Shown: positions 23,094 to 31,779 of the stretch, in pieces | Layout of the letters: every line of letters starts with the position of its first letter | How positions within the stretch are numbered: position 1 is the stretch's first letter | Translations under genes and position numbers: made by a program | Notes under the pieces: model-generated | Databases searched by the model: none | Told to the model about the DNA's origin: nothing | The model's input: the letters and a program-made list of their open reading frames with translations, nothing else | NCBI GenBank assembly: GCA_003223295.1 | Contig: QHYM01000145.1 | Coordinates: forward strand, 1-33,748 | Length of the DNA: 33,748 bases | Reading direction: 5' to 3' | From: Acidobacteriota bacterium | GTDB taxonomy: Bacteria; Acidobacteriota; Terriglobia; Acidiferrales; UBA7541

Positions 23094-24179
23094 TTACTTA
23101 TTGATGTCGTCTTTGGCTTCCAGGCGCTTCAGCAGTGGCTCCAGGAAGGGCTTGTTCGTATCCGGCGCCCCGCTGATGGCCTGCGTCATCTCTTTCGCGG
23201 CTGCCGGGAAGTCTCCTTTGTTGGAGTCAACGCGTGCCAGCGCTAGGTGGCTGATCCAATGATTCGGATCCTTCTTGGGGACCTGGGGATACAGCTCGAA
23301 CGCCCGCTTGGTGTTCCCATTGCGCTGCAGTCCGCGCGCGTAAACGTAGAGTTGTATGGCGTTCGCCTTGTCCAACGCTGTCGCGAGCGCTTTGTCCGCA
23401 TCTTCTTTCTTGCCCATGGCGGTCAGAATACGCGACTTGGTCTCCCAGTTTTCAAAGCGATCTTCGTTTTGAATGGATGTGTTTTCCCACTTCAGCGCTT
23501 CTTCCAGGTTGTAATTGTTGTCCAGGCACCATTGCGCGGCTTCGTCGAAGCCCGCCCAGGTGAACCCGCCCACGCTCCGAAGCTCGTGCTTGATGCTCCG
23601 CAGCACCACGGCTTTGACGTCCACGCCGATCTGGAACGGTACGGCCAGCTTCTCCCAGCGCAGGGTCGCCACCGCCGACTCCGGCTTCACGTCGTCGAAC
23701 GTGTACGTCAGCGCCTCAAACGCTTCCGCGGCATGCGGCTTCACGCTCACGCGCAGCGCGTCTTCCTTTTCATCGTAGCTAAAACTTCCCCAGGACGTCG
23801 CATTCTTCGAGAAGATAATCGTCCACTGCTCCTTGTCCGGAATCGTGTGCAGGCCGTACGTGCCCGCCGCCAGCGCCTTTCCTTCCACTGTCACATCGTC
23901 CGGAAAAGCAATGGTGGTGTTCTCATTCGCTCCGGCGCGCCACACCTTCCCATAAGGAACTGTTTTGCCCCAAATCTCGCGGCCGCCCACCATCGGCCGG
24001 TGATAGTTAATGGTGATATCCGTCAGCCCAATGCGTTGCGTGACGCTCCCGCGCTGGCTGACGCGCGGAATATTCAATTCCGTCGGCTGGCTGCCATTTT
24101 TGAATTGCGCTTCCGCGCTGCTGGCAAGAAGGAGTACTCCTGCGAAAAGGCCTAGAACAGACTTCGACATGCTGCACAT
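23094..24179 (-). CDS. Secreted DUF2911 protein with C-terminal TPR-like repeats
   Basis: Encodes 361 aa from ATG 24179, favoured over ATG 24170 because GAGAGGA lies about eleven bases upstream of it. A signal peptide covers residues 1-24 (core VLGLFAGVLLLASS, cut near AEA-QF). DUF2911 spans about 38-185: RGSVTQRIGLTDITINYHRP, GREIWGKTVPYGKVWRAGANE, TTIAFPDDVTVEGKALAAGTYGLHTIP. The rest (about 210-355) has helical repeat character with EAAQWCLDNN, AMGKKEDADKALATAL and GNTKRAFELYPQVPK, a TPR-like arrangement. DUF2911 proteins are common exported proteins of Acidobacteriota and Bacteroidota with no assigned activity. An intrinsic terminator follows on the same strand. Confidence 0.87.
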   Translation of the reverse strand: MCSMSKSVLGLFAGVLLLASSAEAQFKNGSQPTELNIPRVSQRGSVTQRIGLTDITINYHRPMVGGREIWGKTVPYGKVWRAGANENTTIAFPDDVTVEGKALAAGTYGLHTIPDKEQWTIIFSKNATSWGSFSYDEKEDALRVSVKPHAAEAFEALTYTFDDVKPESAVATLRWEKLAVPFQIGVDVKAVVLRSIKHELRSVGGFTWAGFDEAAQWCLDNNYNLEEALKWENTSIQNEDRFENWETKSRILTAMGKKEDADKALATALDKANAIQLYVYARGLQRNGNTKRAFELYPQVPKKDPNHWISHLALARVDSNKGDFPAAAKEMTQAISGAPDTNKPFLEPLLKRLEAKDDINK

Positions 24180-24334: not shown

Positions 24335-24348
24335 GTTTCTCAAGCGTG

Positions 24349-24386
24349 GGGCCCGTAGCTCAGCGGTTAGAGCAGCGGACTCATAA
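24349..24386 (+). pseudogene. 5' half of a tRNA gene with CAU anticodon, truncated after the anticodon loop
   Basis: The segment reads as a canonical tRNA from base 1: acceptor GGGCCCG, T-A at positions 8-9, D-stem GCTC (24358-24361) with GAGC (24370-24373), loop AGCGGTTA, then anticodon stem GCGGA (24375-24379) and loop CTCATAA (24380-24386) with anticodon CAT, so tRNA-Met or tRNA-Ile2. The next bases should pair as TCCGC but read GCTCA. No variable loop, T-arm (GGTTCGA) or CGGGCCC acceptor strand follows, and I did not find the missing 3' half elsewhere in the window. It therefore cannot make a functional tRNA as assembled. Confidence 0.75.
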
Positions 24387-24507
24387 GCTCAGGCTGTAGT
24401 ATTGACACGCAAGGTACAATGTCTCCGCCTCTAATCGGGGTCCTTAGGTGTTCGACTGCAAGGCCATTCCGCCCTTCCAAGAAAACTCACAGTGGAGGTG
24501 AATGCTC

Positions 24508-26370
24508 ATGTCTAGGATTACGGCTCGTGTTTTTCGCGCGGCATCAAACGGAGCCTGGTTAGCTTCTAAGGCCATTAATGGACTTTTTCCCGAGGCGAAT
24601 TTGCCCAGCCCAAGCTGGGCGCCTGGCCGACTTCTAAAGCAGCGGAACCGCAGGCTGATGGATACGGGCGTTCCCAGGAATACCCTGTCGCTATGCCCCG
24701 ACTGCAACCGTGAAGCAGTCGAGGCTCTCCTCAAGGGTGAGATTGACGCGGCGGATTTTAGAGACAATCCCGGAATCATCGAAGCGGAGATATTGGAAGA
24801 GGGCGGGCGCATCCTCATGCGTAAGGCCTGCGAGCAGCATGGTCCGTTCGAAGACACTCTTTCCAATCACCCGGATTTCTTTCGGAAGATGGAACGTCTT
24901 GCCTTTGGAAGAGACTTCGAATGCGTTGACGATTGCAAGGTCCACGGTCATGGCCCAAACAGCCTTAGGTCTGGTAGAGGGACATTTTTGATCGTAGATA
25001 TCACCAACCGATGCAACATGATGTGCTCGCCGTGTTTCATGGATGCGAACGCTGCCAGCTACGTTCACGAACTGACCATCGAAGATATAAAGACCATTTT
25101 CAGCAACGCACTTTCGTTTAAGCCTCAGCGAGAGATCAACGTCTTGTTTTCAGGAGGGGAGCCAACCGTTTCACCGATTTTTCTTGATGCCGTTCGCCAC
25201 GCGAAAAGCATGGGTTTCCATCGACTTCATGTTGCGACGAACGGTGTGCATTTCGCCGAGAGTAGGGATTTTGCTTTCCGGGCGAAGGAGGCTGGTCTGC
25301 ATGCCGTATACCTTCAACTGGACGGCGTTTCCGAAGAAAAGAACAAACATCGTGGATTGGGGAACTACATCGCGGTGAAGCGGCAAGCCTTGGAGAATAT
25401 CGCTTCTGCCGGGATGCGAACAACGCTTCAGGTCACCGTAACCAATGGCGTCAATGACGACGGGCTTGGCGACATTGTTCGCTTCGGGATTCAGAACATA
25501 GACAAAATCCACGGCGTCGTTTTTCAACCCATCATGTTTGCCGGCAGGGACGAGGGCGTATCCGCCGATGAGCGATATGCCCATCGCTATCCTCTCACGC
25601 AGCTCGCTTTCGATCTGCATGAGCAGACTTCGATTGGCTGGCAGCCAATGCGGGACTGGTTCCCACTGTCAGACTTTGGGATATTCGCGCATCTGTGCGA
25701 TGTCCTGAACCCTCAGGCGAAGTTAGGAAGCCTTTTCCAGGAGACGCATCCGAACCGTGGCATCTTCAGCCCCTTGCTTGTGGACACACATCAGAAACAC
25801 GCGATCCCGATTCCCGTCTTCTTTAATTTGGAACAATTCATGAGGGACGTTGTAGAAATCACGGACTCTGCAAGGGGACCGGCGGTAACTAAGGCGCATG
25901 TCTCCCTTTCCGCACTTCGTAATTTCAACCAGCAGAAGGCACCCTCAGGTTTTGGGCCTGCCGACCTTCGGCGCGTGCTTGAGGATTGCTTCTATCGCGT
26001 TGCCGGTAGTTGCGATCATTGGTCTCAGAAGGTTCATTCGTATGGCGGGCGCTGGAGAGTGATGATCTTTAACGGCATGTGGTTCCAGGACGTTTTTAAT
26101 TACGATTTCTCGGGAATCTGCAATTCCACTACTCCTGTGGCAACGACCCAAGGAGAAATCAGCTTTTGTGCTTACTACGGCGGAGGTTGGCGAAAAGTTG
26201 TCGAGCACCAAAGCCGAACTGCCACCTTGGCAGAATGGCACAGGACCCACGGTCGCCACGAAATCTACGCCAACGGCAAGAAAGTTGACCTAGGGCAGCC
26301 GGTACATGGCGCGGATACCGAATTGATTCAGCTAGACGCCCAACCTTTGGCAATTCCGACCAGCAATTGA
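24508..26370 (+). CDS. Radical SAM protein of the Tes/MJ0619-like superfamily, candidate membrane-spanning/ether lipid enzyme
   Basis: Encodes 620 aa from ATG 24508, nine bases after GGAGG; ATG 24502 is too close to that site. An N-terminal metal-binding region has CPDC (63-66), RKACEQHGPFED (106-117) and FECVDDCKVHGHG (138-149). The radical SAM core follows: CX3CX2C with Cys169, Cys173 and Cys176 in NRCNMMCSPCF, then FSGGEP at 214-219. Near the C-terminus NGMWFQDVFNYDFSGIC and GEISFCAYYGGG match the family's closing motifs. This layout is that of archaeal tetraether lipid synthase (Tes) and related MJ0619-like enzymes; bacterial relatives are proposed to make membrane-spanning lipids, which Acidobacteriota contain. 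The family call is strong; the lipid role is inferred. It stands alone behind the tRNA remnant. Confidence 0.83.
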   Translation: MSRITARVFRAASNGAWLASKAINGLFPEANLPSPSWAPGRLLKQRNRRLMDTGVPRNTLSLCPDCNREAVEALLKGEIDAADFRDNPGIIEAEILEEGGRILMRKACEQHGPFEDTLSNHPDFFRKMERLAFGRDFECVDDCKVHGHGPNSLRSGRGTFLIVDITNRCNMMCSPCFMDANAASYVHELTIEDIKTIFSNALSFKPQREINVLFSGGEPTVSPIFLDAVRHAKSMGFHRLHVATNGVHFAESRDFAFRAKEAGLHAVYLQLDGVSEEKNKHRGLGNYIAVKRQALENIASAGMRTTLQVTVTNGVNDDGLGDIVRFGIQNIDKIHGVVFQPIMFAGRDEGVSADERYAHRYPLTQLAFDLHEQTSIGWQPMRDWFPLSDFGIFAHLCDVLNPQAKLGSLFQETHPNRGIFSPLLVDTHQKHAIPIPVFFNLEQFMRDVVEITDSARGPAVTKAHVSLSALRNFNQQKAPSGFGPADLRRVLEDCFYRVAGSCDHWSQKVHSYGGRWRVMIFNGMWFQDVFNYDFSGICNSTTPVATTQGEISFCAYYGGGWRKVVEHQSRTATLAEWHRTHGRHEIYANGKKVDLGQPVHGADTELIQLDAQPLAIPTSN

Positions 26371-26891: not shown

Positions 26892-28655
26892 TTAATGGAC
26901 AGAGATCGAGACGGTTGACGTGGTGCGCCCAAAGGCGTTTGTGGCATAGAGGGTGTAGGTGGTTGATTGTGCCGGACTAACGGTAACACTAGTGCCTCGT
27001 ACTGCGCCGACTTCGGGAGAGACGATCACATAAGAAGCTCCGCTCGCCTGCCAGGACAGCGTAACCTGAGTGCCCGCGGATACCGATGTGGCACTTGCGG
27101 TGAACGAGGTGACCTGCGGGGCATTCCCCTGTGGGATGTTGGAAGATGTATAGGTTTGACTTGCTGCCAGAACTTCGAAATCAGATGCTTTCACCTGCCC
27201 GAGAGCGTGCAGGTCAGTATTGTCCCAGCGATCATCGGGCGCGCCACTGAGAAACATATTCGATCCGTTGTCCGCCATAATCATTCCATATTTCTTGAGC
27301 GCGTTCAGAATCACCTGATTGGTAGAGGAATATCCAGAAACGTCGAAGCTGGCTTTCAATCGCAAGCGCATTCCCATTGGGGCCGCCAGCGAATTGGTTG
27401 AATTTGCCGCCCAGTGAGTGGCAGGGAGAACGAATGCTGCGCGGCTTTGTTGCAGGGTGAAGCGCAAGGCGTGACGAATTTGGCCTGCAGCGATTTCATC
27501 GTAACGCACAAGTCCAGAGAAGATTGGAAGACCAGCAGCGTCCGCGCTTGTCCATGTGTAAGGACGCTGCTCATTCGAAAGCAGATCCCAGACTGCAGCG
27601 GAGCCGACATTCCACGAATTCCCAGAGGCGTAAGAGCTGAAAAGCTCGTAGAGAAAACAATTCGAATTGTCGAGAACGAGGACGTGGCGGTCTCCGGTGC
27701 CGGGATTCGGATAGCCTTCGACAGGCGCGGTCACGGGAATGGGCATGGGCCCGGGATCACTTTCACTTCCGTAAGCAGTGAAGTTAATCGTTACCGGCGA
27801 CTGCTGAGCGCCGACAATGAGATAGGGAATGCCAATCGTCGATCCCAGGTATTGGCCACCACCGAAATCCGCGTGCATTCCCGTGGCACCGCCGATGAAA
27901 TTGATGATCGCTGTCGAATTGGGATCTACGGCAGCAGAAGAAATGTCCTCGTTCCAAAGGCTGTCAGGGGGGAAAGGAACGAAGCCTCCGAGGCTCGCGC
28001 CCTGGCCGAGCGACATGGTGCTGCAGTTGGAGGCTTGCGGAGAGCCGGTTACCTGGAGATTGACCGCACCGGACGCGCTGCCGCCTGGGTTTGGATTGTT
28101 CACAGTCACCGCGTACAGTCCGGCAGAAGGGGCCGTACCTGTTGCGATGAGCTGGGTCGACGAGACGAATGTTGTCTGAAGCGCGGCGGTTCCAAAAAGC
28201 ACTTCAGCGCCGTTAACAAATTTGCTGCCAGTGAGAGTGAGCGTGAAACTGCCCGTGCCTACACTCGCTGGATTGATACCTGTCAGCACAGGCGTTGGAT
28301 TCAGGAGAGTTACGCTGCTTGAACCACTGGCGGAGGAGTCCGCGGCGCTCGTCGCGCGCACCGTAATGATATTGGGGTTTGGAAGACTGTCCGGCGCTGT
28401 ATAGTCGCCACTTGCGCTAATGGTGCCGAGTGTGGACGAGCCGCCGCCGACGGACCAGGTGACGGCAGTGTTTGTCGTCCCCGACACGGTGTCGCTGAAC
28501 TGGAAGGTGTCGCCTGCGCGTATGCTCGCGGTGGGAGGAGACACGACGACACTGATTGAGGATGGCGGAGGCGGTTGATTATTAATGGCAAATCCGGCGC
28601 AGCCGGTGAGAGAGAGCGCCAAAAACACGTGGCTGAAACTGAATAGGATGCGCAT
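26892..28655 (-). CDS. Putative lipoprotein with Ig-like and IPT/TIG domains
   Basis: Encodes 587 aa from ATG 28655, chosen because it gives a clean lipoprotein signal: LALSLTGC with Cys at about residue 18. A Pro-rich stretch (NNQPPPPSS) leads to a Big_2/Ig-like domain at about 33-118 (ISVVVSPPTASIRAGDTFQF). An IPT/TIG domain spans about 120-202 (PVLTGINPASVGTGSFTLTLTGSKF). A central domain of about 300 residues (DSLWNEDISSAAVDPNS, HVLVLDNSNCFLYELF, AAGQIRHALRFTL, NALKKYGMIMADNG) is one I do not recognise by name but it looks globular and conserved. A final Ig-like domain spans about 508-587. It is probably surface-exposed and may bind or process a polymer. No strong ribosome site is seen. 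Confidence 0.8.
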   Translation of the reverse strand: MRILFSFSHVFLALSLTGCAGFAINNQPPPPSSISVVVSPPTASIRAGDTFQFSDTVSGTTNTAVTWSVGGGSSTLGTISASGDYTAPDSLPNPNIITVRATSAADSSASGSSSVTLLNPTPVLTGINPASVGTGSFTLTLTGSKFVNGAEVLFGTAALQTTFVSSTQLIATGTAPSAGLYAVTVNNPNPGGSASGAVNLQVTGSPQASNCSTMSLGQGASLGGFVPFPPDSLWNEDISSAAVDPNSTAIINFIGGATGMHADFGGGQYLGSTIGIPYLIVGAQQSPVTINFTAYGSESDPGPMPIPVTAPVEGYPNPGTGDRHVLVLDNSNCFLYELFSSYASGNSWNVGSAAVWDLLSNEQRPYTWTSADAAGLPIFSGLVRYDEIAAGQIRHALRFTLQQSRAAFVLPATHWAANSTNSLAAPMGMRLRLKASFDVSGYSSTNQVILNALKKYGMIMADNGSNMFLSGAPDDRWDNTDLHALGQVKASDFEVLAASQTYTSSNIPQGNAPQVTSFTASATSVSAGTQVTLSWQASGASYVIVSPEVGAVRGTSVTVSPAQSTTYTLYATNAFGRTTSTVSISVH

Positions 28656-28930
28656 GGCCGTCAGCACAGTCAACAACTTAAGGCGTGGTGATAGCTTGTC
28701 TGATGGACCTGTGCGTGGATACTGGACGGAAGGGAAAAAATGGGTCAATGTTCCGAGAGTGTACGCGCCCAAAGAAGCGCAGTTGTTTTGACGGCCGCCG
28801 CGCATTCAGTACTTCGTGTCCGACCTTCTTGTCGCGCAGGGACGTGACTTTACGCAGCTGCCGCACGACGGTGAACGTGGGCGTGCAAAGCGGCAATCGC
28901 ATTTGATTTCCGGTAAGGCCCTACCAGGAC

Positions 28931-30684: not shown

Positions 30685-31779
30685 TTACGTCGGAACTGTC
30701 CTGCGCATCAGGTTCCGCATGCGCACCAGGTTGTAGGCCGCGCAGGCAAACGTGAAGATCCAATCGACTTTCAGCGTTCCGCGATGCCGCACTTTGCGTA
30801 ACAACGCAATGGTCTTCAGCCAACCAAAACATTCTTCGATGCGCTTTCTCTTCTTCTGGCTGATGGTATAGCCCGCCTGCCGCGTCGTGCGGCTATCAAT
30901 GGCGCTGCCGCCTCTTCGCCCAAGGTTTTGCGCCACGTGCGGCGTCACCCAAATGTTCCGGCACTCGCGCACGAATTCCGCCGTGTCGAAGCCCTTGTCG
31001 CCGCCCACCGTCACGCGCCCGCTTCCCGGAATTCCCTGCAGCATTTCCAGCGCAGCATAGCGCTCCGCCGTGCCTGTGGCTTCCCACACCCGGCTGTCCA
31101 CAATCAAGCCGTTGCGATTCTCCACCAGCAGATTCCCGCTGTAGCTCAACTTGGCCTCCTTGCCCGCACCTTTGCGTGCCAGTTGCGCTTCGGGATCACT
31201 TTTCGACTCGTGCGTTTCGTTCGAGCGCTTCTCGCCGCGATAATCCACCGTGGGATTTCCGGGATCCTCCGGTGGAGGCCCACTCTTCTTGTTCTTGGGT
31301 TGAAAGCTCTTCACGCTGGCCCAGGCTTCCAACAAACTTCCGTCCACCGTGAAGTGTTCTTCCGAAGCCCATCCCTGTCCTCGTGCTTGCTCCACAACTA
31401 GCGCCAAAAAGTCCTTGGCCACTTCGGCCTCCAGCAAACGATCGCGGTTCTTGGTGAACACCGTGGCATCCCACACCGCATCGTCCAAATTCAGCCCCAC
31501 GAACCAGCGGAACAAAATGTTGTAGTCGATCTCCTCCATCAGCAGCCGCTCGCTGCGTACCGAGTACAACATCTGCAACAGCAGCGCGCGCAGCAACTGC
31601 TCCGGCGGAATCGACGGACGCCCCACTTTGGAATACATCTTGCTGAACTCAGGTGAGAGTTCCTTGAGTACCTTGTCTACCATCGCGCGGATCGGCCGCA
31701 GCGGATGATCTTTGCGCACCCGCTGCTCCGGAGAAATGTAGCTAAAAACATGTCCTTGCTGCTGATCGGTTCCTCGCAT
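30685..31779 (-). CDS. IS5-family-like DDE transposase
   Basis: Encodes 364 aa with a full DDE core. The N-terminal region (GRPSIPPEQLLRALLLQMLYSVRSERLLMEEI, residues 53-84) is the helical DUF772-like domain of IS5/IS1182-type transposases. Catalytic residues are Asp146 in FTVDGSLLEAW, Asp261 in VGGDKGFD and Glu315 in KRKRIEECFGWLK. The C-terminus is basic (VRMRNLMRRTVPT). No frameshift or premature stop is seen, so it should be active. The gene fills most of the 1302-bp element, leaving about 150 nt on its 3' side and 55 nt on its 5' side. A strong ribosome site is absent, as is usual for transposases. Confidence 0.92.
   Translation of the reverse strand: MRGTDQQQGHVFSYISPEQRVRKDHPLRPIRAMVDKVLKELSPEFSKMYSKVGRPSIPPEQLLRALLLQMLYSVRSERLLMEEIDYNILFRWFVGLNLDDAVWDATVFTKNRDRLLEAEVAKDFLALVVEQARGQGWASEEHFTVDGSLLEAWASVKSFQPKNKKSGPPPEDPGNPTVDYRGEKRSNETHESKSDPEAQLARKGAGKEAKLSYSGNLLVENRNGLIVDSRVWEATGTAERYAALEMLQGIPGSGRVTVGGDKGFDTAEFVRECRNIWVTPHVAQNLGRRGGSAIDSRTTRQAGYTISQKKRKRIEECFGWLKTIALLRKVRHRGTLKVDWIFTFACAAYNLVRMRNLMRRTVPT

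Follow-up and report, generated by a model that had tools for sequence, protein, structure and literature searches.

Known tetraether synthases and related enzymes

The closest described relative of the gene reported here is the archaeal tetraether synthase Tes (GDGT-MAS; MJ0619; structures 7TOL and 7TOM). In the available text of Lloyd et al. (PMC9433317), whose 7TOL residue numbering is used below, Tes parks the first substrate radical as a bond to sulfur of its C-terminal cluster. Among the ligands of this cluster only Met439, a labile one, is numbered in that text; the M439A variant remains active, so the methionine itself is not decisive, and other radical SAM enzymes are described there in which Ser or Arg ligates a cluster.

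In bacteria, 456 Tes homologs were reported by Zeng et al. in 2022 with brGDGT synthesis as a hypothesis (PMC8941075), and bacterial homologs have been proposed for brGDGTs, as yet unproven, in several studies (PMC8941075, PMC10087280, PMC11868695). Acidobacteria produce iso-diabolic acid (PMC13274423). The bacterial membrane-spanning lipid synthase Mss couples fatty acyl tails and was modelled as Tes-like in architecture (PMC13274423), while the GDGT ring synthases GrsA/GrsB act on lipid tails by radical SAM chemistry, for which they probably use no auxiliary cluster (PMC11186832). Both are likened to our gene by description only, and the structures of GrsA/B are described as notably different from those of Gms and Tes.

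Gene structure, motifs and predicted fold

Here, we analysed a DNA stretch of 33,748 nucleotides (contig QHYM01000145.1, assembly GCA_003223295.1), called the window below, whose acidobacterial origin was correctly stated in a preliminary description. The gene lies at 24502..26370 (+) as an ORF of 622 aa. Its probable true start is the ATG at 24508, the third codon of this ORF, because a ribosome-binding site (GGAGG at about 24494–24498) and the N-termini of close relatives (MSGIT...) fit this position; the protein has 620–622 aa depending on the start. The clade to which it belongs is called W.

The preliminary description had recognised a Tes-like protein by its N-terminal Cys/His region, CX3CX2C core, GGEP motif and C-terminal pattern, and every one of these is present. 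A rubredoxin-type metal site is found at 24694..24840 (+), where the CPDC segment (C65-X2-C68) is paired with C110-X2-H113; the site was aligned to C33/H36 of 7TOL and its CPxC is conserved. Compared with the Tes site (C9-X2-C12-X20-C33-X2-H36), the W equivalent is conserved with a longer spacer. The radical SAM cluster motif CX3CX2C (C171, C175, C178; 25012..25035, +) is invariant in A1 and kept in 17 of 17 W members, and the SAM-binding motif GGEP occupies residues 218–221 (25153..25164, +), with GGEA in 6 of 15 W members. The C-terminal motifs are NGMWFQDVFNYD at 524–535 and GEISFCAYY at 551–559.

The superfamily assignment is borne out by similarity searches. Pfam finds Radical_SAM (E 3.9e-19) and Zn_ribbon_HMPTM (PF23545; E 1.5e-12, 47 bits), and the best NCBIfam match is the Tes model NF045702 (E 7.5e-75), at 252 bits and hence below the equivalog cut-off of 450 bits. 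The best PDB match by sequence is 7TOL (E 3.7e-53), at about 28% identity. We confirmed the ORF as a real radical SAM gene and not a chance reading frame. The match to the zinc ribbon with the HMPTM label corresponds to the rubredoxin site of MJ0619, which is Tes. A known pterin methylase, the non-lipid alternative named in the preliminary description, was rejected; comparison with pterin methylases does not discriminate here, because the MJ0619 family is Tes itself, and in the available text of Lloyd et al. the older pterin-methylase claim for MJ0619 could not be corroborated (PMC9433317).

The AlphaFold model of the window protein, built from 55 sequences (pLDDT 87, pTM 0.89), superposes on 7TOL from end to end with Z 39.0 and an rmsd of 2.5 Å over 477 residues, and Foldseek gives a TM of 0.89 by target length, while the next PDB family reaches a Z of about 20. 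W thus shares with Tes the full-length fold, CX3CX2C, GGEP and the positions Gln268/Arg275. It differs from Tes by an extra N-terminal helix and by the lack of Cys73/77/80, Cys338, Cys455, Tyr459 and Ser271. The extra N-terminal region also exists in the Tes-like proteins of the groups CORE, F21 and F29 (described below) and of Anaeromyxobacter, and is helical in the two models made. In several W members the N-terminal helix is amphipathic, which lends weak support to membrane contact.

Phylogeny and distribution

A tree of 93 proteins, 15 of them from W, was built by a quick maximum-likelihood search with SH-aLRT support only. W is monophyletic (SH-aLRT 100), on a stem of 0.98 compared with 0.16 for its sister group. 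This sister consists of F21 and F29, accessory paralogs of other acidobacterial families, and the CORE group lies outside these. A branch of 1.92 (support 100) separates W, F21, F29 and CORE from 7TOL and the TES group. The phylogeny with Tes and MJ0619, which the preliminary description had proposed as a check, therefore keeps the protein in the same superfamily but sets it outside the clade of Tes proper. W belongs to the broad bacterial Tes-like set of Zeng et al. (PMC8941075); the homologs of about 40% identity in that set (Koribacter, Solibacter) fall by identity into the ligand-complete TES clade, whereas W is a separate mobile branch. In the literature that we found on bacterial Tes homologs, the W clade is not singled out.

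Most of the genomes compared are metagenome bins with short contigs. At a threshold of E 1e-40, 171 of 297 acidobacterial genomes have a Tes-like match, and true Tes-like proteins above the cut-off, a third group, are found in 34 of the 297. Among the 52 good genomes of the host's order, 50 contain a match at E 1e-100, and almost all of these matches belong to CORE. W genes (identity at least 63%) are found in 14 of 95 genomes of this order, 13 of which belong to the host's genus (36 genomes), as well as in two genomes sampled from f2, another family of the class. A close relative of the window protein (84%) comes from a Candidatus Acidoferrales genome, and G434, which has the same W locus as the window, was placed in the window's genus. 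One W-containing sequence, L010 (CAJCHZ010000054.1), is titled Betaproteobacteria; G433, with W in the same place, groups in the window's acidobacterial genus, and the title is probably wrong.

Loss of presumed cluster ligands

To compare the C-terminal domain, 17 W members were set against about 107 other sequences (with a few duplicates), among them TES, CORE, F21, F29 and Anaeromyxobacter. Outside W, Cys338, Cys455, Cys470 and Met439 are invariant. These four residues presumably ligate the C-terminal cluster of Tes; the three cysteines were taken as ligands because three Cys and one Met make up the expected ligand number.

In W, the place of Cys338 is occupied by R419 in the window protein (codon 25756..25758, +) and by His, Arg or Gln in 17 of 17 members, His in about half of them, while all 107 other sequences have Cys. 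The place of Met439 is M526 (26077..26079, +), with Met in 14 of 17 members. In the segment 26125..26139 (+), Cys455 is replaced by Ser (S542; 17 of 17) and Tyr459 by Val or Met (V546 in the window; 17 of 17). The sole retained cysteine of the presumed C-terminal ligands is C556 (26167..26169, +), in the place of Cys470, and it is kept in 15 of 17 W members. Ser271 of Tes is also lost in the window protein. As for the N-terminal auxiliary cluster (Cys73, Cys77, Cys80), alignment to 7TOL indicates that it is absent not only in W but also in CORE, F21, F29 and Anaeromyxobacter.

Other cysteines were considered as substitute ligands: Cys stands at window position 141 in 14 of 15 members, at 399 in 11, at 496 in 12 and at 540 in 7, and it is invariant at none of them. 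Since W lost Cys338 and Cys455, two of the presumed ligands, the known Tes reaction is not to be expected of it. An unusual cluster in W is possible, given the Ser at position 455 in all 17 members.

The dN/dS ratio is 0.13–0.21 in divergent W orthologue pairs and equally low in the C-terminal domain; for the very close pair L010/L013 (pS 0.03) it is 0.41, on few changes. Judged by these ratios, most sites of the W clade are under purifying selection.

The resident paralog

The host genome (G000) contains two Tes-like genes, W in the window and a CORE paralog on contig C32 (24073–25647; L023 1099–3267, −; 318 bits), with 41% identity between them. The two proteins share the fold, the domain order and the absent N-terminal cluster. 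Unlike W, CORE retains the three C-terminal cysteines, Met439 and Tyr459, is about 100 aa longer, has host-like codon use and is near-universal in the host's order. Paralogs of this type are common across Acidobacteriota, and a ligand-complete paralog stands alongside W in most W-positive genomes of the order. Compared by similarity only, the neighbours of CORE include no lipid gene recognised as common across families.

By its ligand set and distribution, the CORE paralog on C32 appears a better candidate than W for iso-diabolic acid. The proposal of the window gene, in the preliminary description, as a good candidate for linking lipid tails was not supported: the protein falls below the Tes cut-off and outside Tes proper and has lost cysteines of the C-terminal cluster, and the ligand-complete paralog of the same genome fits the role better. 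Nor is a tetraether product specifically indicated. In a search of the host genome for a Ger/PlsA ether-lipid gene, only a BcrAD protein of 333 aa was above the cut-off; no long protein of the PlsA/Ger type, with BcrAD domains for making ether bonds, was found in it, and this route gives no indication of ether lipids.

Genes of the true Tes-like and CORE kinds are neighbours in some Terriglobia, 320 bp apart and in the same direction in L153 (2818–7001, −) and about 6 kb apart in L152 (1991–11481, +), suggesting that the two may work jointly in one pathway.

Genomic context and mobility

The left part of the window is a stable chromosomal block (TonB receptor, aminotransferase, permease, aldehyde dehydrogenase, DUF2911) that also exists in W-negative relatives. 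Its last gene, DUF2911/TPR (23094..24179, −), borders an integration hotspot in W-negative genomes too, and past it the relatives diverge in content. Between this gene and W lies the 5' half of a tRNA-Met gene (24348..24386, +; 39 bp), which breaks off directly behind the CAT anticodon and represents a relic of the attachment site of an integrated element. It is identical (39/39) to the intact tRNA-Met of the W-negative L137 and, with its flank, to L138 (45/45). Two W-negative relatives have an intact tRNA-Met at the same place, while the window has the 5' half only, followed by W; the right-hand attachment site of the window element lies off this contig. The GC3 of the W gene (0.594) is below that of the left-hand genes measured (0.65–0.81), and its codon-use value is lower than theirs too.

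Directly downstream of W, the variable right flank contains a large TIG/choice-of-anchor repeat protein on the opposite strand (26892–28805), which was not found in syntenic relatives. An IS5-family transposase (30685..31779, −) lies 4.3 kb downstream in the same flank; nothing indicates that it was the vehicle, as the tRNA half-site abuts W on the opposite side. No relaxase, coupling protein, recombinase or partition genes were found within the window itself.

The same tRNA target recurs elsewhere in the clade. In G418, W lies between two tRNA-Met halves 2.7 kb apart, with a full tRNA-Met and a phage-integrase fragment farther on. L144 (6426–12848) is a tRNA-Met hotspot with two tandem half-tRNA copies ahead of the intact gene, in which W stands alone between the first two copies and the next interval contains a toxin gene of the AbiEii type together with an integrase fragment.

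Other W genes are found with conjugation and replication functions. W adjoins TrwB and TrwC in five loci (L009, L011, L012, L022, L205) and, on a short contig, TrwB alone (L019). RepB/ParB and a recombinase are near W in L012 and L205, with ArdC in the former, and in both loci W is placed between the partition genes and TrwB/TrwC. These two (Acidobacteriaceae-type) have a recombinase at 96% and a ParB-like protein at 98%, while the adjacent TrwB genes look more divergent; the element looks like a mosaic conjugative element. The coupling protein TrwB, at 45–56% identity, occurs in many Terriglobia genomes for which no W is listed, and only the close form (>70%) was seen with W. In G421, G433 and G402, W occurs with RepB primase, SSB, EVE and IrrE genes.

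G421 and G433 have a common block of about 7.5 kb with 97.6–97.9% nucleotide identity, ending inside the last codons of W. Their W genes are 97% identical with a pS of 0.03, compared with a pS of 0.51 for their CORE genes, and this difference together with the near-identical block indicates recent horizontal transfer. A vertically inherited lipid gene was rejected on synonymous divergence and context. No conserved operon partner of W was found outside mobility functions. Curated plasmids gave only distant radical SAM matches, none covering 80% of the W query, and no close W match was found in viral contigs.

In summary, movement of the W clade with conjugative and tRNA-integrating elements is supported by gene context and divergence. 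The location on mobile DNA, raised as a possibility in the preliminary description, is corroborated by the conjugation, replication and recombinase genes around the clade and, for the window copy, by the tRNA-Met half-site.

Possible functions of W

At about even confidence, we consider W to be a mobile, derived and neofunctionalised Tes paralog that accompanies a resident Tes-like enzyme in soil Terriglobia, predicted to carry out radical chemistry on lipid tails other than coupling of the Tes type. The enzyme would still generate the 5'-deoxyadenosyl radical and abstract hydrogen from a lipid tail, in a pocket like that of Tes. Lacking the C-terminal cluster, it could not park the first carbon radical in a sulfur-carbon adduct, and most likely the outcome would be a one-radical or intramolecular tail modification, as opposed to the coupling of two saturated tails by Tes. 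Such a modification could be, for example, a desaturation, the closing of a ring (the reaction proposed for GrsA/B) or an addition to an unsaturated chain. A lipid tail as substrate is inferred from the modelled fold and from kinship.

It is possible, though unlikely, that W still couples tails, if an unusual cluster is bound by Ser542, His/Arg419 and Met526 in place of the missing cysteines, or if the radical is held cluster-free. The full Tes fold of the model, the invariant Ser at the 455 site and the His that about half of the members have at 338 are consistent with this, as is the production of iso-diabolic acid by acidobacteria (PMC13274423). GrsA/B, moreover, probably make C-C bonds on tails with the SAM cluster only (PMC11186832), so loss of the C-terminal cluster does not rule out every C-C chemistry in W. 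However, no set of replacement ligands is invariant in W (position 338 has His, Arg or Gln, and 439 and 470 vary), and Tyr459 and Ser271 are lost too. Tail coupling by W would also be redundant, because most W-positive genomes of the order have the ligand-complete paralog.

The positions of W between partition and TrwB/TrwC genes (L012, L205) and beside TrwB/TrwC in five loci, and the presence of the resident paralog in the majority of W-positive genomes, would suit an enzyme that does not couple tails but assists or competes with the resident one. Conjugative elements would carry it to lower or alter the membrane-spanning lipids of their host, for instance so that the membrane stays sufficiently fluid for mating. 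A lost acceptor cluster in a retained fold points the same way, but the SAM cluster motif, which a pure decoy would not need, is strictly conserved, and we regard such a role as quite unlikely. The broader idea that conjugative elements carry a Tes-derived lipid enzyme to change or block host membrane-spanning lipids during transfer and establishment is likewise a long shot; if true, it would be a lipid-membrane counterpart of anti-restriction genes.

Rather improbable, too, is a reading in which the old Tes scaffold acts on a small molecule, peptide or protein instead of a lipid. The long stem branch, the many clade-specific replacements and a core matched by many radical SAM folds would agree with it, whereas W retains the complete Tes architecture with its C-terminal domain, several members have the amphipathic helix that weakly supports membrane contact, and no conserved partner gene exists outside mobility functions. 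Finally, a decaying pseudogene relic of an integrated element is hardly credible: some distant copies (L019, L022 and L021) are frameshifted or truncated, but the window copy is intact, and decay is contradicted for it and its near relatives, with dN/dS at 0.13–0.21 among divergent orthologues and equally low in the C-terminal domain.

Implications for lipid biology

Counts of Tes homologs in bacterial genomes and metagenomes serve as indicators that membrane-spanning or brGDGT lipids are produced (PMC8941075, PMC11868695). Such counts need a ligand check (Cys338, Cys455, Cys470), because W would pass a plain homology cut-off, lacks two of the presumed ligands and is mobile. A W gene is no proof of membrane-spanning lipids and, by its residues, probably does something different to lipids. 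The two paralogs in one genome form a natural experiment on the role of the C-terminal cluster in Tes chemistry, and the pair points to the resident enzyme as the candidate for iso-diabolic acid in Acidobacteriota.
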